DNA from: Acidobacteriota bacterium
GTDB lineage: Bacteria; Acidobacteriota; Blastocatellia; Chloracidobacteriales; Chloracidobacteriaceae
Reading direction: 5' to 3'
Length of the DNA: 64,000 nt
NCBI GenBank assembly: GCA_016208495.1
Contig: JACQXX010000116.1
Coordinates: forward strand, 62,001-126,000
The stretch's first letter is position 1, and each line of letters starts with the position of its first letter. The position numbers were made by a program, and so were the translations under genes. Below are positions 22,804 to 33,459 of the stretch, piece by piece. Under the pieces are notes generated by a model. It was not told where the DNA came from and did no database searches. It saw only the letters and a list, made by a program, of their open reading frames with translations.

Positions 22804-23228
22804 AAGCGCAACGGCAACCGTTTTGCGGCACTCATCAGACCGCCCGTGCTCCCCAGCCAAACCCACCGAAACCGGATTCAGCGGCGGAATGAGCTGGAGT
22901 ACGGCACGGTTTTTTGGCGGAACGTTCAGTGATTCAATTGAATACCCTTTGTGATCACAAACTGATATTCTGGCAACTCGTGTCCAACCGGGCGGTATCT
23001 TTTTCAGCCTAAAATACCTTTTCCCGCCGGTTCTGCCTCAGCCCTCACCCCCTTCCCACTTGACACCTGCCACATCAACTCTGATGATGCTCTCTTTCAC
23101 CTCTTCTGGTGAATTTTTGGTGGAAACACTTCGCCTTGAGCATCATTTTGGTCCATTCACATTCCCGCCCTCATCCCCCTGGATTTTTGGGAACACGATG
23201 GACACTCCCTGAAGGACACGGAACAACA
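22804..23228. other. Gap before leuS, no gene seen
   Basis: This 425-base gap shows no ORF with family resemblance, no heptamer array and no T-box leader (no TGGNACCGCG-type antiterminator box). The leuS promoter should lie here. leuS's own frame is open back to 23109, but that upstream part has no homology. Confidence 0.5.
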
Positions 23229-25898
23229 ATGAACGAGAAGTACCTCCCGCAAGACGTCGAACACAAATGGCAAAAACGGTGGGCTGATGAACATACCTTT
23301 GAGGTTCACCCGGATCCGAATCAACCCAAATTTTATTCGCTGGAAATGCTTCCCTACCCATCCGGGCGCATCCACATTGGTCACGTCCGCAACTATTCGT
23401 TGGGTGACGCATTTGCCTGGTATAAGCGCCTCAACGGATTGAATGTGCTTCACCCGATTGGATGGGATGCGTTTGGAATGCCCGCTGAGAATGCAGCGAT
23501 CAAGCATGGCCAGCAACCTGACATCTGGACACGGTCAAATATTGCGGTTATGCGCGACCAGCTTAAACGGGTTGGGTTTAGCTACGACTGGTCGCGGGAA
23601 ATCGCCTCCTGCACCCCAGAGTATTACCACTGGAATCAATGGTTCTTTATTCAAATGTTCAAGAACGGACTGGTGTATCGCAAACTCGCCACAGTCAACT
23701 GGTGCGATCAATGCCAGACCAGTCTGGCCAACGAGCAAGCCGAGGGTGGATTTTGTTGGCGCCACGAAGAGACTCCGGTTGAAAAACGTGAGCTTGAACA
23801 ATGGTATGTCCGCCTGACACATTACAATGAGGAACTGCTGGCTGGAATCAACGGTCACCTGCAAGGCAACTGGCCGGAGCGGGTGCTCACCATGCAGCGC
23901 AACTGGATCGGTCGGAGCGAAGGCGCGGTGATTGATTTTGCCCTGGCTGATGATTCATCCCGGTCAATCAACGTCTTCACAACCCGCCTCGACACCATCT
24001 TTGGGGCCAGTGCGGTGGTCATCGCACCTGAACACCCGCTCGTCAAGCACCTGCTTGAACATTCGCCCAATCGTGCAGAGGTTGAAACCTTTATTGATCA
24101 GGTCAGCACGATGAGTATGCTTGATCGAATCGGCGAGGGCACCACCAAAGAAGGCATCAGTACCGGGCTGTGTGCGGTCAATCCGTTTAACCAGGAACAG
24201 CTTCCGATCTGGGTGGCCAATTTTGTCCTGGCTGAATACGGCACCGGAGCAATTATGTGCGTTCCCGCCCATGATGAACGCGATTATGAGTTTTGCCGCA
24301 AATACCACCTGCCCATTCAGCGTGTGATCTGGGGCTATACCGAAGCAGATGCCAATGTCACCCTCCGGTTTTCGGAGTTGCCATTTACCGATCCAGGGTT
24401 TCTCGGGCCAAATTGCGACCAATATGCGGGACTGCCCTCGGATGAAGCCCAGGTTGCAATGGCTGAATTTGCTGAAACCAATGGGTTTGGGAAAGCGACG
24501 GTCACCTATCGCATCCGGGACTGGGGCATTTCCCGCCAGCGCGCCTGGGGCACGCCAATCCCGATGATTCATTGTTCAACCTGTGGAATCGTTCCAGCGC
24601 GTGAAGCAGACCTGCCCATCAAATTGCCTGACAACCTGGATTTCTCAGTTGGGGCACCGCTTACTCGCTGTGCCGAATACGTCAATGTCTCCTGTCCGAC
24701 CTGTGGTGGCCCGGCCCGGCGGGACACCGATACCATGGACACGTTCGTTGATTCAAACTGGTATTATTTCCGCTACTGCGATCCAAAAAATGATCAACTC
24801 CCCTTTGACCCGGCAATTGTCAAATACTGGATGCCGGTTGATTTCTACATCGGAGGCATCGAACACGCCGTCCTGCACCTGATTTATACCCGGGTCTGGA
24901 CCATGATGATGCGCGATCTGGGTCTGGTTGAATTTGGCGAACCGGTCAAAACCTTGCTGACTCAGGGAATGGTCATCCTGAACGGCGCGAAAATGTCGAA
25001 AAATAAGGGGAATGTGGTTGATCCTGACGAAATGGTTGACCGCTATGGAGCTGATGCCACCCGGCTGTCAATTCTGTTTGCGGCCCCACCTGAAAAAGAA
25101 GTTGATTGGAAACAATCCCTGCGGGTCATTGCCCCAGAGCATCCGCTGTTTGATCAGGTCTTTAAGGGTACCCGCACCTTTGATGATCAGAATCGGCTCT
25201 CGTTTATGCTGGAACAACCCGATGCGTCAACCCTGACCCTGCCGGATAACGATGTTTCAGTCGAATACCCGGCGGCGGAAGGTGCGATGCGCTATCTGGC
25301 GCGGGTCTGGCGACTGGTCCGTAAATGGCATCCACTTGTCGCCGAAACCACTTTTGACAGCGAGCCAACCGGATACTCCGATGCCCAGCGGACCCTTCGA
25401 CGGGCAACCCACCAGACCATTCAACGCATTACCCAGGCGTATGAAGACGGGCTTCGGCTCAATGTCACCGTTGCTGCCTGCATGGAATTGACCAATGCAC
25501 TGTATGACTTTGACGCCACGGTGACTGAGGTTTCACAAGCTGGAATACCTGATGTGTTTGTCATTAAGGAAGGGCTTGAAGCACTGGTGGTGATGCTGTC
25601 CCCCCTGGCCCCACATATCGCAGAAGAACTCTGGGAAGCACTGGGCCATCCGTCATCCATCTCCAAAGCCAGATGGCCAGTCTTCCTGGCTGAGTGGGCG
25701 CGCGAAGCCCAGCTTGAAATCCCGGTTCAAATCAATGGAAAACTGCGCACCAAAGTTCTGGTTGATGCCGAGGCCACTGAAGACGAAATGAACGCCATGG
25801 TACTGGCGGATCCCAAGGTTCAATCCTCCCTTGAAGGCAAAACCATCGTCAAAACGATTGTGGTGCCGAAACGCCTGGTGAACCTGGTGGTGAAATAG
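23229..25898 (+). CDS. leuS: Leucyl-tRNA synthetase with an insertion before the anticodon-binding domain
   Basis: A class Ia synthetase that charges tRNA-Leu. The 889 aa protein has the HIGH motif at 49-52 and KMSKN at 588-592 (the KMSKS loop). The CP1 editing domain includes the threonine-rich and GTGAIMCVPAHDERD segments, and the zinc-type cysteine pairs CSTCG and CPTCGG are present. Between Trp627 and the start of the anticodon-binding domain (EGAMRYLARVW, from Glu684) lie about 56 residues, where E. coli LeuRS has about five. The inserted stretch begins with RVIAPEHPL, echoing VVIAPEHPL in the editing domain. The start is the ATG at 23229 (MNEKYLPQDVEHKWQ), which matches the family N-terminus. 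The protein is cytoplasmic and essential. Confidence 0.95.
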   Translation: MNEKYLPQDVEHKWQKRWADEHTFEVHPDPNQPKFYSLEMLPYPSGRIHIGHVRNYSLGDAFAWYKRLNGLNVLHPIGWDAFGMPAENAAIKHGQQPDIWTRSNIAVMRDQLKRVGFSYDWSREIASCTPEYYHWNQWFFIQMFKNGLVYRKLATVNWCDQCQTSLANEQAEGGFCWRHEETPVEKRELEQWYVRLTHYNEELLAGINGHLQGNWPERVLTMQRNWIGRSEGAVIDFALADDSSRSINVFTTRLDTIFGASAVVIAPEHPLVKHLLEHSPNRAEVETFIDQVSTMSMLDRIGEGTTKEGISTGLCAVNPFNQEQLPIWVANFVLAEYGTGAIMCVPAHDERDYEFCRKYHLPIQRVIWGYTEADANVTLRFSELPFTDPGFLGPNCDQYAGLPSDEAQVAMAEFAETNGFGKATVTYRIRDWGISRQRAWGTPIPMIHCSTCGIVPAREADLPIKLPDNLDFSVGAPLTRCAEYVNVSCPTCGGPARRDTDTMDTFVDSNWYYFRYCDPKNDQLPFDPAIVKYWMPVDFYIGGIEHAVLHLIYTRVWTMMMRDLGLVEFGEPVKTLLTQGMVILNGAKMSKNKGNVVDPDEMVDRYGADATRLSILFAAPPEKEVDWKQSLRVIAPEHPLFDQVFKGTRTFDDQNRLSFMLEQPDASTLTLPDNDVSVEYPAAEGAMRYLARVWRLVRKWHPLVAETTFDSEPTGYSDAQRTLRRATHQTIQRITQAYEDGLRLNVTVAACMELTNALYDFDATVTEVSQAGIPDVFVIKEGLEALVVMLSPLAPHIAEELWEALGHPSSISKARWPVFLAEWAREAQLEIPVQINGKLRTKVLVDAEATEDEMNAMVLADPKVQSSLEGKTIVKTIVVPKRLVNLVVK

Positions 25899-26229: not shown

Positions 26230-27117
26230 ATGATCAACTGGCATCGGCTCTTCGGCATTGCCCTGACCGAATTCTTCAGCGGTTCGCCCTTTGTGGTCGA
26301 ACTGGAAAAAGATCTGTCGCAGAAAAAGCAATTGCTCGATATCGTCATCATTCGCCGGACCGACGGCCAGTGGGATCATCCGTTACCGGATGGATTTGAC
26401 AATCTGGCTGATCATAACCTGATTAGCTACAAATCGTTGCGGGAACCATTCGATGACTGGACGCTCAAGGAATTGACCGGCCATTACGTCAACTATCGCA
26501 AGCAGGTCAGTCCATCGCTCAATGACTTGTTGCCGGAGGACCAGTTTCGGCTCTACGGCATCTGTACCCGGTTTCCCAGCCACCTGACTGGTCAGGTTGA
26601 TATGTATCGGGTGCTGGGTGGCGTTTATGACATTTATCGGGGGTCGGACCGGATTCGGCTGATTGTGTTGAGTGAAATTCAGGATGCCGGGCAAAATCGC
26701 ATCTGGGAGCTATTCAGCACCAGGCCGGACCACATCCGGGTCGCTGCCCAGGAATTTCAAGCCAGATACGGGGAAGCCAGCACGATTCTGAACCAGTTGT
26801 TCAGGTATTACCACATGGAGGGATTACCCATGCCGTACACGATGGAAGATTTCAAACGGGATGCCAAAGAAGAATTTCTCAAGAGTCTGACACCTGAAGA
26901 ACGCCTCAAAGGCTTACCGGCTGAAGAACGCCTCAAAGGCTTACCCTCGGATGAACTCTTAAAACACCTTGACCCCGAGGAACGCCTCAAGGATTTACCT
27001 CCTGAAGAACTCTTGAAGCGATTATCGGTTGAGGATATTCAAGCTTATTTGAAGAAGTTGCTTGACCACTCAGAGTCAGATTCATCAGAAAAGCCCTCAA
27101 AAAACAGACCAGCTTGA
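26230..27117 (+). CDS. Rpn/PD-(D/E)XK-type protein with 9-residue C-terminal repeats
   Basis: The first ~120 residues (LFGIALTEFFS, VVELEKDLSQKKQLLDIVIIRR) resemble the Rpn/DUF4351-like family of PD-(D/E)XK nuclease-fold proteins, with acidic residues in the expected ELE...LDIVII pattern. The middle part is helical. From about residue 215 there are six tandem 9-residue units of the type LxPEERLKG, ending in LSVEDIQAY; the first two are almost identical in DNA as well. Such leucine/glutamate repeat tails are common in this family. The length is 295 aa. Some Rpn proteins promote recombination by DNA cleavage, but activity here is not shown. The start is the ATG at 26230 without a clear ribosome site. 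A MITE-like element lies upstream. Confidence 0.6.
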   Translation: MINWHRLFGIALTEFFSGSPFVVELEKDLSQKKQLLDIVIIRRTDGQWDHPLPDGFDNLADHNLISYKSLREPFDDWTLKELTGHYVNYRKQVSPSLNDLLPEDQFRLYGICTRFPSHLTGQVDMYRVLGGVYDIYRGSDRIRLIVLSEIQDAGQNRIWELFSTRPDHIRVAAQEFQARYGEASTILNQLFRYYHMEGLPMPYTMEDFKRDAKEEFLKSLTPEERLKGLPAEERLKGLPSDELLKHLDPEERLKDLPPEELLKRLSVEDIQAYLKKLLDHSESDSSEKPSKNRPA

Positions 27118-27339
27118 GGCCAGTTCTTTTTCAGGTGAGCGGTTATCCAGTTTTCAAGGCTGCAATCTGACGCTGATTTGAACCTGGCCTACAGTGAGTT
27201 GCCCACTACCAAAGCGGCGTCAAGTGGGCTGCACTCTCAAGTTTTAGCTTGACATCCCTTCTTAGACATAAGCATTCTGCCCATCTCTCAACTCCATTGA
27301 TTTTCGCATTCCTTTTTCACGCTTTTCGGTCAGGTGCTT

Positions 27340-28518
27340 ATGTCTCAACCAATTCCTTCTCAAAACATCCAGTCTCCGCCAGCGGAACACTTGTATCGCG
27401 ACGAACTCAGGTTTTTGGAGCATTTTGGCTCCGGAGTGCGCCCGCCAAACTGGCGCTTGACGCCGCAAGCGGTGGTGACCTTCATCGTTGGCTCGAAAGG
27501 CGAAACCCTGCGTCTGGCGAAAGATTCGAAAGCTCCAGAAGATGTGCCCCGGTCACTGGTCATTTCTGAAAAATTTGTTGGTAACCGCGCTCTGGTTGAA
27601 CGCTGTGTGGTCACCCTGGCCGGAGAACGCGGTCTGATGCTCGTAGGGGAACCTGGAACGGCCAAGTCCATGCTTTCGGAATTGCTCGCGGCTGCCATTT
27701 GCGGCACCAGCGGTTTGACGGTTCAAGGAACGGCTGGCACAACTGAAGAACAGCTTCGCTATGGCTGGAATTATTCGCTCCTGATTGCCAAAGGACCCAG
27801 GCCCGAAGCCCTGGTCCCATCCCCAATTTTGACGGCAATGAATACCGGCGGCATTGGCCGAGTCGAAGAAGTTACCCGCTGCCTGCCTGAAATCCAGGAT
27901 GCGTTGATTTCGCTACTGTCCGAGCGACGGCTGATGATCCCAGAGCTACAAACCGAAGCCATCGAGGAAAAAACGGTTTTTGCGCAAAAAGGCTTTAACG
28001 TTATTGCCACAGCCAACCTGCGTGACCGGGGCGTGTCGGAAATGTCCGCCGCACTCAAACGCCGCTTCAATTTTGAAACCATTCCACCAATTCCGGATCT
28101 GGCCCGCGAAGTTGCCCTGGTGCAGCGTCAGGCGACCGCCGCTCTGGCCCGCGTAGACGAACCGCTCCGCGTTGATCAGGCCGTATTGGAAGCCCTGGTC
28201 ACGGCCTTTCGGGATTTGCGGTCAGGCCGTTCAGTTGAAGGCTGGGCCGTGGAAACGCCGGGAACGGTGATGAGTACGGCTGAAGCTGTGAGCGTCGCCA
28301 CCGCTATTGGACTCCAGGCCGCCTATTTCCCGACCGAACGCGATCTGGTGTCGCACCTTCCAGGATATTTGCTCGGCGTGGTGCTCAAAGATGATCCAAA
28401 AGACCGTGGGCGTTTGCTGGCCTACTGGGACAGTGCGGTCAAACGTCGCGCCGAAGGCGGCACCCGACTCTGGAAACAATTGCTGGAACTTCGTTCAGTC
28501 ATCGAGTCAGAAAACTAG
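27340..28518 (+). CDS. MoxR-family AAA+ ATPase (DUF5682-associated type)
   Basis: MoxR ATPases act as chaperones that remodel or load cofactors into partner proteins, usually together with a vWA-domain protein. The 392 aa product has the Walker A motif GEPGTAKS at 103-110, and in the Walker B region RVEEVTRCLPEIQDALISLLSERR in place of the usual DEINRA. This variant is typical, as I recall it, of MoxR proteins that accompany DUF5682 proteins. Sensor 1 is IATANLRDRG. The start chosen is the ATG at 27340; a GTG two codons earlier is possible. It is followed by a lipoprotein gene (gap 100 bases) and then the DUF5682-vWA gene, its likely partner. Confidence 0.85.
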   Translation: MSQPIPSQNIQSPPAEHLYRDELRFLEHFGSGVRPPNWRLTPQAVVTFIVGSKGETLRLAKDSKAPEDVPRSLVISEKFVGNRALVERCVVTLAGERGLMLVGEPGTAKSMLSELLAAAICGTSGLTVQGTAGTTEEQLRYGWNYSLLIAKGPRPEALVPSPILTAMNTGGIGRVEEVTRCLPEIQDALISLLSERRLMIPELQTEAIEEKTVFAQKGFNVIATANLRDRGVSEMSAALKRRFNFETIPPIPDLAREVALVQRQATAALARVDEPLRVDQAVLEALVTAFRDLRSGRSVEGWAVETPGTVMSTAEAVSVATAIGLQAAYFPTERDLVSHLPGYLLGVVLKDDPKDRGRLLAYWDSAVKRRAEGGTRLWKQLLELRSVIESEN

Positions 28519-28618
28519 AAGCAATTGATAGGGAAGAAATTGCTTCAGGCCGAGATGTGCTATCAATCAATAAACCTCACATGTGAACTTCCTAACCTAC
28601 GAATGGAGAAATCCCCGC

Positions 28619-29341
28619 ATGGCTCATTATGTACGCCTTTTTCTCGCGCTGGCTGTGTTACTTAGCCTGACCTCATGTGCCAAGAACCTGTCCTTTACGT
28701 TTGAAATCCCCAAAGAAGAAATCCAGGCAAAAGTCCAAACCAAATTCCCGCTCAAGCCGGGCGCTGGGGAGAAAGAAAAATCCCCGGTTGAGTTGACGAT
28801 AAGTGATCCGGTGATACTCCTGGAAGAAGGAAAAAATCAAATCGGGATCAGAGTCAATGTCCTGGCGATTCCATCCGCACCTCAACTCAACGCTCCCAAA
28901 CCGCCATCGGCTCCGGCTGATGGCCCCAAACCGCCCGGTGGTGGTCCCAAACTTCCTGGTGGCGGCCCCGGTGGTCCTGGCGGTCCTGGTGGCCGGTTGA
29001 AGGACGGCCCTCCCTTGCCTGGAGGTGGTCCTCAAAAACCACCAGCCCCACCTCAACCTAAGTTCACCGGCACGGTGACGGTCTTTACCACGGTCAGCTA
29101 TGACCCCAAAACGAAGTCCATCCACCTCAGCAACCCGAAAATCACAAACCTGGACATCAAACAGCTTCCACCACCGCTGGAAGAACCGCTCAAACAAATG
29201 GCTGAGAAAAAACTGGCTGAAAAACTTGCCGAACAATCAATCCCCCTCGAAGGCAAATCTCCTATCGAAGAAACCGCCATTACATTTATGAAATCGGTTT
29301 CTGTGAAAAATGGAAAATTGCTGGTTGAAATCGGCTGGTAA
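28619..29341 (+). CDS. Lipoprotein with proline/glycine-rich linker (DUF1439-like)
   Basis: The N-terminus is a lipoprotein signal: a hydrophobic stretch (LFLALAVLLSLTSC) with lipobox LTSC at 17-20, so the mature protein would be lipid-anchored at Cys20. The following region (FTFEIPKEEIQAKVQTKFPLK) and the C-terminal part (VTVFTTVSYDPKTKSIHLSN, KKLAEKLAEQSIPL) resemble the YceB/DUF1439 fold. The two parts are separated by about 50 residues of G/P-rich repeats (PPGGGPKLPGGGPGG). The length is 240 aa. The ATG at 28619 follows TGGAGAAA; an earlier in-frame start at 28583 would bury the signal peptide. It sits between the MoxR ATPase and the DUF5682-vWA gene on the same strand, but the 443-base repeat-filled gap after it argues against tight coupling. 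Confidence 0.7.
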   Translation: MAHYVRLFLALAVLLSLTSCAKNLSFTFEIPKEEIQAKVQTKFPLKPGAGEKEKSPVELTISDPVILLEEGKNQIGIRVNVLAIPSAPQLNAPKPPSAPADGPKPPGGGPKLPGGGPGGPGGPGGRLKDGPPLPGGGPQKPPAPPQPKFTGTVTVFTTVSYDPKTKSIHLSNPKITNLDIKQLPPPLEEPLKQMAEKKLAEKLAEQSIPLEGKSPIEETAITFMKSVSVKNGKLLVEIGW

Positions 29342-29784
29342 CTGTTTGGGGTTCCGGGTTCCGGGTCTTGTCATTACCCAAATTTTTCGATGTGCCTGTT
29401 GCGTCCCAACTTGTGGTGAACCCCAACTTGTGGGGTCACCACATCGGGCAGCACTCAACCACCTCACCACAGAGGACACAGAGGAACACAGAGGTTTTGA
29501 GCAAGTGATCGGCCTCTGTGCTTCTCTGTGTTCTCTGTGGTTCAACAATGATGCTGACGGTTCATTGTGTTCGGGGTGATGGGGGCAATTCAGGTTGATA
29601 TTTTGGAAATCGAAAAAATTTGGGTAATGACAAGGTTCCGGGTTCCGGGTTCCGGGTTTTCGAATCAAATTCTTTTTGTTTCCGTGGGCTTCACACCACG
29701 GCTATTACACGACACCCGTGCCGGGCTAAAATCCTTATCCTGGCGCATATGGGGTGACAGGTGACAAAATGACAGGACAAAAAG
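29342..29784. other. Repeat mosaic before the DUF5682-vWA gene
   Basis: This 443-base gap contains GGTTCCG heptamers (29346-29370 and 29633-29658), an imperfect repeat of ACACAGAGG type (29468-29545), a copy of the palindromic dispersed repeat (29682-29751) and a short GTGACAAG array (29752-29775). No gene was seen. Confidence 0.65.
29682..29751 (+). repeat. Palindromic dispersed repeat, copy A
   Basis: It starts with the hairpin CCGTGG...CCACGG (29682-29701) and ends in TCCTGGCGCATATG. Related copies lie at 35011-35080 (minus) and 37877-37925 (plus, shorter). Like copy B, it directly abuts a GTGACAAG array. Confidence 0.8.
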
Positions 29785-32700
29785 GTGAATTCTTTCATCC
29801 CTCATCCTTCATCCCTTCGAAGAACCCGGAACCCGGAACCCGGAACCCGGAACCCGGAACCCGGAACCCGGAACCCGGAACCCGGAACTCAAACGCCGCT
29901 CCTGATCGGGGTGCGTCATCATTCCCCGGCCTGTGCGGCGGCAATCCCAAAGCTGCTTGACGCTTTTGGACCAGACAAAGTCGTAATTGAGCTTCCGACC
30001 GAATTTCAGGACTGGATCAAGTGGTTGGGTCATAAGGACTTGCTGGCCCCCGTGGCTCTGGCGGGCGTCAGGTCAGATGGCAATGGACTGGCGTTTTATC
30101 CGTTTGCTGATTTTTCCCCGGAACTGGCCGCTATCCGCTGGGCGATCCGGCACAACGTCCCGGTTGAAGCCTTCGACCTGCCAATGGAGCAATGGGAACG
30201 CCTCGAACGTGTCATCCGCGAGGCCGATCCTCAAACAGAAGTTGATCACGCCGGGCCCGTTCCTTCACTCCTGCAGCAATTGCTGGCTCAAACCAATGTC
30301 GAGGATTCAGAAAGTTTGTGGGATGTCCTGGTTGAATCCCACGCCACAGCCTCTGATCCAGAAGAAATCCGCCGGGCCGCACTTTTGTACGGCTGGGCCT
30401 TGCGCGTGGAAAGTATCCGGTCAAAAACAGTTCGCGACCATGACCTGCACCGTGAACGATTTATGCGGGAATGTCTGTTCAAGTCAGGGTTGAGTTGCTT
30501 TGGACCGTCGGCTGGGGCTGGTGAAGCGGTTGCCACACTGCCCCGGATTGCGGCGGTCATCGGGGCCTTTCATGCACCGGCGTTGCTCCGACATCCGTGG
30601 TACTGGTCACCGACTCAAGTTGCCGCCAAACCAGTGGAAAAAAAGAAGAATGACCGGGGCGCCACCATCAACACATCGCTCATTGCTTATTCGCACGAGT
30701 TGCTGGATTCACGGTCAGGATATCCGGCAGGCATTCGGGATCCGCTCTGGCAACACCGGGTCTGGGAAGCCGCCAGCACCGGACGTACACTTTCAACGGT
30801 TGTCACAGAATCAGTCGTCGGAATCTGTGCCGAAGTCCGCCGCAAGTTTCACGTCGCGAGCGTGCCGGATGCCATGGAAGCCGTTCGCCTGACCGAAGAT
30901 CTGGCGACCTTGCGGGGAATTCCATCGCCGGGCCGCCGTGAATTACTCGAAGCCATCGAAACCGCGCTGGGACAGGGAGAATTGCTCGGGCGGGGGCGAA
31001 TCCTGGCTCAGGCCATGGAACGAGTCCTGGTTGGCCGACGTCGAGGACGGCTCGCCAGTGGGACACCTCGTTCGGGTTTGGGCCCGCACGTTGAACAATT
31101 GCTGGCTGAACTAAAACTTCCGGGCCCAGGCACCGAATCAAGCGAAGCCAAACGCATGCGGCTTGATCCACTCCGTTCAAATTTGGATGCCCGCCGGCAG
31201 ATTGCCCTCAAACGGCTCGGTGCCTGTGGCGTGCCGTATGCCAAACTCGAAGCCGGCGAAGCCATTGGCGCCTCAGAGCTTTTGACACAGGTATGGACCG
31301 TTTCATGGACGCCCGGCACCGAAGCCATGCTGGAACTGGTGGGGGTACGCGGTGTCACGCTGGAACAGGCGGCGTTGGGTAGCCTCAAAGCCGAAGAAGC
31401 CCGCTACCGAAGCGACGAGAAGTGGGTCCCAGCCGTGCAGTTGTATTTGCTTGGTCAGGCCGCTGATTGTGCGCTCCACGAATTGACCCACGACTATTTA
31501 ACCGCCTTGACGCAGGCGTTTGCCACCGAAGCGACGTTGCCGCAACTCATTGCCGCCATTGAAATTGTACTGCGCATCGAGCACGAGCACATTCCCGGCC
31601 TTTCTTTTCAAAACCAAAAACTGGTGGTTGATTTTGATCACATCCGGGCCGAATTGTTTTCTGCCGCGCTCAAAGCAATTGAAGGACTGGCCGGATCGAA
31701 AGCGCTTGACGATGCCAGGGCCTTGCTGGAATTGATCCAGCTTTATGAACGTCAATCCGAAGATCCAACCAGCGTTGGTGATGGTCGGCTGCGGTGGGCA
31801 CTCGCCGAACTGGCGGAAAATGGCTCGTCACTGATGCAGGGGGCCGCCGGTGCCTTACAGGTCAGATTGGGTGTTACGACGGGCGCCGAATTTGGCAAAC
31901 TCGTGGCTTCGTGGGTAGACGCGGCCACCAGCAAAGACACCCATCAAACGCTGGCTGAACGGTTGCAAGGTGCGCTGGCGGTGGCAGCGCCATTGTTTGA
32001 GGCTGACCCAACCTGGGCTACGCCATTGATGGAACGTATTGAGCAGCAAATAGATACGGAATTTCTGCACCGATTGCCCGCGCTCCGCGAAGGGTTTGAA
32101 GTGCTTTCGACCGCCAGCCGGGCCCGGATGCTGACCATTCTGGCCGAACGATTAGAGGATGACGGCATCACCCAAACCTTTGACGTCGTGCTCAATGACA
32201 ACCCACACCTGCTCGCCCGCTGTGCTGAAATTGACCGCGTGGGCCGCCAGGCGGTTGAATCACTCTTCGGCCAGCTTCCGACCGTTGCTTCTGGAAATCC
32301 TGAGGCGGCTGGTCAGGAAATTCATAAACCATCAGTTTCAGGGCCAGACGTTGCGATTTCGCCTCGTGACCGGTGGCGGTTGATCCTGGGCCACGAGCGC
32401 GAGCGGATGAAGCCCAAATCGGCTGGAATTGCCCGTGCCCTGGATGAACTCTATGGCGCCGGCCACGGCGAAGGCTCGCGCGGGGAAATTAGTGGAGGGA
32501 AGGGAGGCGGAAAAGAAGCTCCTTTTCCATCAACCCGTGAATGGGCCGAAGAACTGGAAGCCCTGTTTGGAGGAACTGTCCGCGAAGAAGTGCTGGGCCG
32601 TGCCGTCGAACGTGGCCGGGCCTCAGCTCTGCTCGAACTCGATGCCGAAACCGTTTCACCTTCAATCGAATTGCTTGAACAGGTTCTTTCCCTCAAAGGC

Positions 32701-33459
32701 GGGTTGTCAGAGGGCCAGCTTGGCCACCTGCGGCGCATTGTCCAGCGAGTGATTGATGCCCTGGTCAAAGAACTGGCCACCCGTGTGCGCCCGGCATTGA
32801 CCGGGTTGACGGTGCCGCTCCCAACGCGCAAACCGGGTGGGCCGCTCGATATTCGGCGAACAATCACCGCTAATTTGAAGACACTTCGGCAGGATGAAGC
32901 TGGGAACGTTACATTTATTCCGGAACGGCTCTTGTTTAAGACCCGCACCAAACGCTCAATGGACTGGCGGATTGTGCTGGTGGTTGATATTTCGGGTTCG
33001 ATGGAAGCTTCGGTCATTTACAGCGCGATGATGGCCGCGATTTTGTCAGGATTACCAGCCGTTTCAGTTCATTTTGTGGCGTTCAACACTGAAATTCTGG
33101 ACCTGACCCATCGGGTTGAAGATCCGCTTGGGTTGTTGCTCGAAGTTTCAGTTGGTGGCGGAACACACATTGCCCGAGGGTTGCGCTATGCCCGTGAATT
33201 ATTGACCGTCCCATCGCGTTCGCTGGTGGTCCTGGTCACTGATTTTGAAGAAGGCTGGCCCGTGGCTGGTCTGGTTGAGGAAGTTCGGGCGCTGGTGGAA
33301 ACTGGCGCGAAAACCATTGGTCTGGCGGCACTGGATGATTCCGGGCAGCCACGCTATAGCAAATCAATTGCTGAACTTGTGGTCGGTGCCGGAATGCCAG
33401 TCGCGGCCCTGACGCCACTGGAACTTGCCCGCTGGGTTGGAGAAAAAATTCGCGGGTAA
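29785..33459 (+). CDS. DUF5682-vWA fusion protein
   Basis: This very large protein (1224 aa from the GTG at 29785) joins two families that are usually separate neighbouring genes. Residues about 38-850 belong to DUF5682, with the opening motif GVRHHSPACA (42-51) and VVIELPTEFQDW. About 860-1224 is a CoxE-like von Willebrand A domain protein (RWRLILGHERERMKPK, then the MIDAS motif D1068-I-S-G-S1072, and a later TDFEEGW with Asp1153). vWA proteins of this type work with MoxR ATPases, and the MoxR gene lies 1.3 kb upstream. The true start is unclear. Nine copies of the 7-bp unit ACCCGGA (29824-29886) are read in frame as NPEPGTR repeats at residues 14-34, and no ATG lies between them and the conserved motif. 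The substrate is unknown; related operons are thought to act in stress or conflict, which is inference. Confidence 0.8.
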   Translation: MNSFIPHPSSLRRTRNPEPGTRNPEPGTRNPEPGTQTPLLIGVRHHSPACAAAIPKLLDAFGPDKVVIELPTEFQDWIKWLGHKDLLAPVALAGVRSDGNGLAFYPFADFSPELAAIRWAIRHNVPVEAFDLPMEQWERLERVIREADPQTEVDHAGPVPSLLQQLLAQTNVEDSESLWDVLVESHATASDPEEIRRAALLYGWALRVESIRSKTVRDHDLHRERFMRECLFKSGLSCFGPSAGAGEAVATLPRIAAVIGAFHAPALLRHPWYWSPTQVAAKPVEKKKNDRGATINTSLIAYSHELLDSRSGYPAGIRDPLWQHRVWEAASTGRTLSTVVTESVVGICAEVRRKFHVASVPDAMEAVRLTEDLATLRGIPSPGRRELLEAIETALGQGELLGRGRILAQAMERVLVGRRRGRLASGTPRSGLGPHVEQLLAELKLPGPGTESSEAKRMRLDPLRSNLDARRQIALKRLGACGVPYAKLEAGEAIGASELLTQVWTVSWTPGTEAMLELVGVRGVTLEQAALGSLKAEEARYRSDEKWVPAVQLYLLGQAADCALHELTHDYLTALTQAFATEATLPQLIAAIEIVLRIEHEHIPGLSFQNQKLVVDFDHIRAELFSAALKAIEGLAGSKALDDARALLELIQLYERQSEDPTSVGDGRLRWALAELAENGSSLMQGAAGALQVRLGVTTGAEFGKLVASWVDAATSKDTHQTLAERLQGALAVAAPLFEADPTWATPLMERIEQQIDTEFLHRLPALREGFEVLSTASRARMLTILAERLEDDGITQTFDVVLNDNPHLLARCAEIDRVGRQAVESLFGQLPTVASGNPEAAGQEIHKPSVSGPDVAISPRDRWRLILGHERERMKPKSAGIARALDELYGAGHGEGSRGEISGGKGGGKEAPFPSTREWAEELEALFGGTVREEVLGRAVERGRASALLELDAETVSPSIELLEQVLSLKGGLSEGQLGHLRRIVQRVIDALVKELATRVRPALTGLTVPLPTRKPGGPLDIRRTITANLKTLRQDEAGNVTFIPERLLFKTRTKRSMDWRIVLVVDISGSMEASVIYSAMMAAILSGLPAVSVHFVAFNTEILDLTHRVEDPLGLLLEVSVGGGTHIARGLRYARELLTVPSRSLVVLVTDFEEGWPVAGLVEEVRALVETGAKTIGLAALDDSGQPRYSKSIAELVVGAGMPVAALTPLELARWVGEKIRG
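29824..29886. repeat. ACCCGGA heptamer array, nine perfect units
   Basis: Nine identical tandem copies of ACCCGGA fill 63 bases. They lie at the 5' end of the DUF5682-vWA frame. Because the unit is not a multiple of three, gain or loss of one or two units would shift the frame. Confidence 0.95.

Follow-up and report, generated by a model that had tools for sequence, protein, structure and literature searches.

A lineage-restricted insert at the junction of the stem-contact fold with the anticodon-binding bundle in an acidobacterial leucyl-tRNA synthetase

The leucyl-tRNA synthetase (LeuRS) encoded in the stretch of acidobacterial DNA analysed here (64,000 nucleotides, hereafter the window) carries 51 extra residues where its stem-contact fold joins the anticodon-binding helix bundle. 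The insert is real, and elaborates a well-known enzyme within one small lineage. Quite probably it is a beta-rich mini-domain, specific to its lineage, that grew at the linker between the two parts and serves as an appendage, either passive or mildly stabilising.

The leuS gene (positions 23229..25898, + strand; ATG start at 23229, stop at 25898) is intact, with a frame open throughout its 889 codons. An in-frame GTG at 23109 merely lengthens the ORF; the LeuRS of a sister genus (genome G001, see below) begins with the same MNEKYLPQDVE as the ATG-started protein of the window. The protein scores 975 bits with the TIGR00396 (leuS_bact) profile, whose curated cut-off is 548.4, and 202 bits with PF13603 (CP1 editing domain); the PF08264 anticodon domain is also found. 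HIGH is located at residue 49 and the KMSKS motif, in the form KMSKN, at residues 588-592 (24990..25004, + strand). The class I signature columns are invariant in 56 aligned sequences, and the CP1 motifs TTRLDT and VPAHDERD, with their conserved Thr and Asp, are kept. All the catalytic and editing motifs are intact in this insert-bearing enzyme. The leucine-specific domain (LSD) is absent upstream of KMSKS, which is preceded by a short ILNGA. The host genome (8.4 Mb in 177 contigs, 99% complete) belongs to the same family as the photosynthetic bacterium Chloracidobacterium. The window leuS is an otherwise canonical, housekeeping LeuRS gene carrying a lineage-specific elaboration.

An earlier note on this DNA had counted 56 residues between Trp627 and Glu684, where the E. 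coli enzyme has about five, and our own counts and the PDB alignments agree. The codons of W627 and E684 lie at 25107-25109 and 25278-25280, and the 56 residues between them (five in canonical LeuRS, 51 extra) are encoded at 25110..25277 (+ strand). Indeed, alignments with LeuRS proteins of the PDB jump from 'W..S/E' to '(V/A)EGA', skipping about 50 residues of the window protein. The linker was also measured from GADxxR to EGA, the motif with which the first bundle helix begins; this spacing amounts to 71 residues for the window protein and 72 for that of G001. The insert is found about 40 residues downstream of KMSKS. The strand next to the KMSKS helix pair immediately precedes it, and the anticodon bundle immediately follows. 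GC and GC3 are the same in the insert as in the whole leuS gene. In both genera the insert holds 4 basic and 9-10 acidic residues, and this acidic character does not suggest a phosphate-binding patch.

The LeuRS of G001, which represents a sister genus in the same family, contains a homologous in-frame insert of 52 residues. The two inserts can be aligned end to end (LRV..P..P..DQVFK..RT....E....TLP..D..V.YPA); their local score is 79, and 3000 shuffles give at most 52. In G001 only, the match is uninterrupted across the full length of LeuRS; it is split in all other relatives. Identity between the window and G001 is 71% over the whole proteins, 38-41% in the insert and 61-71% in the rest of LeuRS, the insert having evolved about twice as fast as the remainder. 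Third codon positions of the two leuS genes differ at about half of all sites. Together with the identity of the whole proteins, this divergence indicates that the insert has been held in frame over a long period. The earlier note had left room for a frameshift artefact. Such an error, or one of assembly or sequencing, is ruled out by the in-frame homologue in G001, which belongs to a different genus and was assembled independently; the leuS ORF is moreover open, and the flanks align immediately on either side of the insert.

A search with the insert and its flanks in 396 Acidobacteriota genomes gave a match through the insert in two of them, the window genome and G001. Among all other class members that could be read, as well as in 74 LeuRS loci representing about 13 phyla, the GADxxR-EGA spacing is exactly 20, with no extra residue. 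These 74 are the loci that could be parsed among 80 LeuRS loci from genome contigs, which belong to Thermodesulfobacteriota, Rokuibacteriota, Methylomirabilota, Nitrospirota, Nitrospinota, Omnitrophota, Bacillota, Actinomycetota, Pseudomonadota, Spirochaetota, Schekmanbacteria, Saganbacteria and Acidobacteriota. The idea that the insert might be common in many phyla does not survive this survey. The lineage-specific domain proposed in the earlier note does, since the insert is confined to two sister genera and has the same predicted fold in both. A spacing of 30, that is 10 extra residues, is found in seven genomes of the genus Chloracidobacterium and in G017, a member of another family (f6) of the same class. 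By these spacings, 10 residues of the extra length are shared with Chloracidobacterium, and about 41 are peculiar to the two genera that bear the insert.

A LeuRS tree computed with the insert left out has the window and G001 as sisters (support 100/98); their sister group consists of Chloracidobacterium together with G002. G002 is of the same family, and a contig end interrupts its leuS within the editing domain. Judging from the 10 extra residues that Chloracidobacterium has at this place, the linker of the family ancestor was probably already somewhat extended. One branch would then have lengthened it further, or the other would have shortened it. G017 is placed elsewhere in the tree, among families without the insertion. 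Its 10 extra residues (loci L042/L137; WEVKKSAAGVQEYPGIEG) occupy precisely this LeuRS site and were apparently gained separately, with the caution that the branch is long. In the sister family of the same order (f2; loci L131-L134), LeuRS is distant, at about 50% identity and on a branch of length 1.1, which suggests replacement through horizontal transfer.

The AlphaFold2 model of the window LeuRS, computed from an alignment of 56 sequences that is two sequences deep over the insert, has a mean pLDDT of 90.6. As a whole it superimposes in Foldseek on the tRNA-bound E. coli LeuRS 4aq7 with a TM of 0.86. The core of the insert (residues 631-679; 25119..25265, + strand) is predicted to be a beta mini-domain in the models of both the window and the G001 proteins. 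Five strands are predicted (630-633, 644-651, 657-662, 668-672 and 676-679), and a helix (681-706) follows directly; a separate AlphaFold2 run on the G001 LeuRS gives the same five strands. The pLDDT of the insert, about 73-86 as means per ten-residue block, is good for a stretch with only two aligned sequences; at this shallow depth, however, the predicted order may be exaggerated. In both models, then, the insert is predicted to be a compact five-stranded beta element, situated between the stem-contact fold and the first helix of the anticodon bundle.

As the earlier note observed, the insert opens with RVIAPEHPL (residues 632-640; 25122..25148, + strand), which resembles VVIAPEHPL of the CP1 editing domain (residues 263-271; 24015..24041, + strand). 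A partial internal duplication had been proposed on this ground; the insert would then derive from a copied CP1 segment, VVIAPEHPLVKHLL..., that later diverged. The resemblance itself stands: eight residues (VIAPEHPL) are identical, and the comparison of the window insert with the rest of LeuRS yields a notable score of 49, equalled by 1 of 3000 shuffles. Its extension to the insert as a whole is not supported. The motif is not conserved in G001, which reads RVMNPDSPY there (VMNPDSPY for VIAPEHPL) and whose insert scores only 19 against its own editing domain, that is, no match. The remainder of the window insert bears no convincing resemblance to the editing domain; about 40 of the 51 residues are left unexplained. 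The two DNA copies of VIAPEHPL differ only synonymously, but they do so at 6 of the 8 third codon positions, so that there is no trace of recent copying. Convergence, or a tiny duplication long ago, may lie behind the motif but would account for about nine of the 51 residues. The duplication reading is weak, and we consider it improbable. Another gene was also considered as the source and rejected: the host genome gives no second match to the insert at E<=10, the insert has no match in Pfam or among plasmids, none better than E 0.1 in PHROGs and none better than 0.9 in the PDB, and no viral contig encodes a relative.

The proposed mini-domain would have grown at the linker that leads from the stem-contact fold, just past the KMSKS segment, to the first helix of the anticodon bundle. 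It would lie on the surface, at the joint of the catalytic and anticodon-binding halves. This joint moves between states of class I enzymes. Its position there, together with the missing LSD, makes a stabilising or tuning role reasonable: the appendage may be passive, or it may mildly stabilise the enzyme by stiffening the joint or by modulating the movement of the helix bundle and KMSKS on tRNA binding. A new catalytic activity would not be part of this proposal. Given where the insert lies in the chain, it may affect tRNA contact or KMSKS movement, as the earlier note had suggested. The insert is most likely a putative structural or tuning appendage. A more ambitious version, in which the insert is a newly evolved and selected module that contacts tRNA or KMSKS and covers part of the role of the missing LSD, is quite improbable. 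If true, a new functional domain would have been acquired by a housekeeping synthetase inside a single bacterial family. Chloracidobacterium has neither the LSD nor the long insert, indicating that neither is essential for charging.

In other bacteria, the LSD buttresses KMSKS and guides the tRNA (PMC5059758). The window lineage is without an LSD, and both elements are small, beta-rich and close to KMSKS in the chain, so the insert might be imagined as a displaced LSD, lost before KMSKS and re-acquired after it with the same task. This is very unlikely. In a comparison of the insert with 16 LSD or zinc-type inserts the best score is 24, which about 75% of shuffles reach, and the relocated LSD was rejected on this result; in addition, Chloracidobacterium, lacking both elements, must charge tRNA-Leu normally. 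At the other extreme, the insert could be a neutral, dispensable surface loop that arose by slippage or insertion and has no role. Its fast divergence (38% identity versus 61-71%) would also be expected of a dispensable loop. The insert is acidic and variable, the length of the site varies independently in G017, and Chloracidobacterium manages with 10 residues. However, the core pattern given above is conserved across two genera, and the same strands are predicted in both, despite their high synonymous divergence. On this evidence, a loop without any role is a serious possibility but a somewhat unlikely one.

In families f3 and f7, a Cys-rich, zinc-ribbon-like insert replaces the LSD before KMSKS (e.g. 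RCEEHDWLYPYEVIDGKCKYCQR; loci L021, L025, L028, L043, L044, L182-L184, L188 and L189). It reaches about 100 residues in G033.

No co-adaptation of tRNA-Leu was seen: the tRNA-Leu genes of the window genome and of G001 are like common bacterial ones. A shorter D-loop occurs in 4 of 5 Chloracidobacterium tRNA-Leu genes; a tRNA-Leu change matching the insert was rejected because these altered D-loops are found in Chloracidobacterium and not in the insert-bearing genera. A tRNA-Leu(UAG) gene lies at 1134-1215, in the same window as leuS. The tRNA-Leu(UAA) gene is split at the anticodon by a group I intron of about 220-240 nt in the window genome (L169, G000:C70:78103-78432) and in G001 (L167, G001:C39), and is uninterrupted in C. 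validum (L139). Introns of this kind are classically associated with cyanobacteria. In the class, 42 of 118 genomes have group I intron matches. One of them, in the window's own genome (L168, G000:C107, around 31630), contains an inserted stretch of coding length, and its host gene, mislabelled as Leu by ARAGORN, resembles an initiator tRNA. In G001, a stretch of about 8 kb (L158, G001:C101:6000-14600) carries 30 predicted tRNA genes, all on the same strand. A second tRNA-Leu set is among them, and the array looks like a mobile tRNA island.

Downstream of leuS, the window encodes at 26230-27117 a protein of 295 residues with C-terminal EERLKGLP-type repeats and no Pfam match, resembling by eye the Rpn-type transposase-family proteins. 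At 27334-33459 follow, in a row, a MoxR-type AAA ATPase, a DUF1439-like protein and a protein with DUF5682 and VWA_CoxE, that is, a MoxR-vWA system adjoining leuS.

No paper on such an insert was found among open-licence papers. The insert appears to represent a recent domain gain in an essential and highly constrained enzyme, at a site of otherwise invariant length. With living Chloracidobacterium as a 10-residue intermediate, the growth of a synthetase domain could be traced step by step. As a conserved signature indel, the insert also provides a clean taxonomic marker by which two genera of the family can be told apart from the others; in other respects it is an ordinary elaboration specific to its lineage.

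Compared with the TIGR00396 enzymes of E. coli (4aq7), T. thermophilus (1h3n/2bte) and N. gonorrhoeae (6q89), the window LeuRS has the same domains and motifs in the same order: HIGH, CP1 (TTRxDT, conserved Asp), KMSKS, anticodon bundle and C-terminal domain. It differs from them by the 51 extra residues at the junction of the stem-contact fold and the anticodon bundle and by the absence of the LSD before KMSKS. The LSD is likewise a small, lineage-variable insert near KMSKS; it precedes this motif, whereas the window insert comes about 40 residues after it, and the two share no sequence similarity. The LeuRS of Chloracidobacterium is also extended at this site, and its insertion likewise ends in DYPAAEGAMRYLARVWRL, but it has 10 extra residues only, as against 51 in the window.
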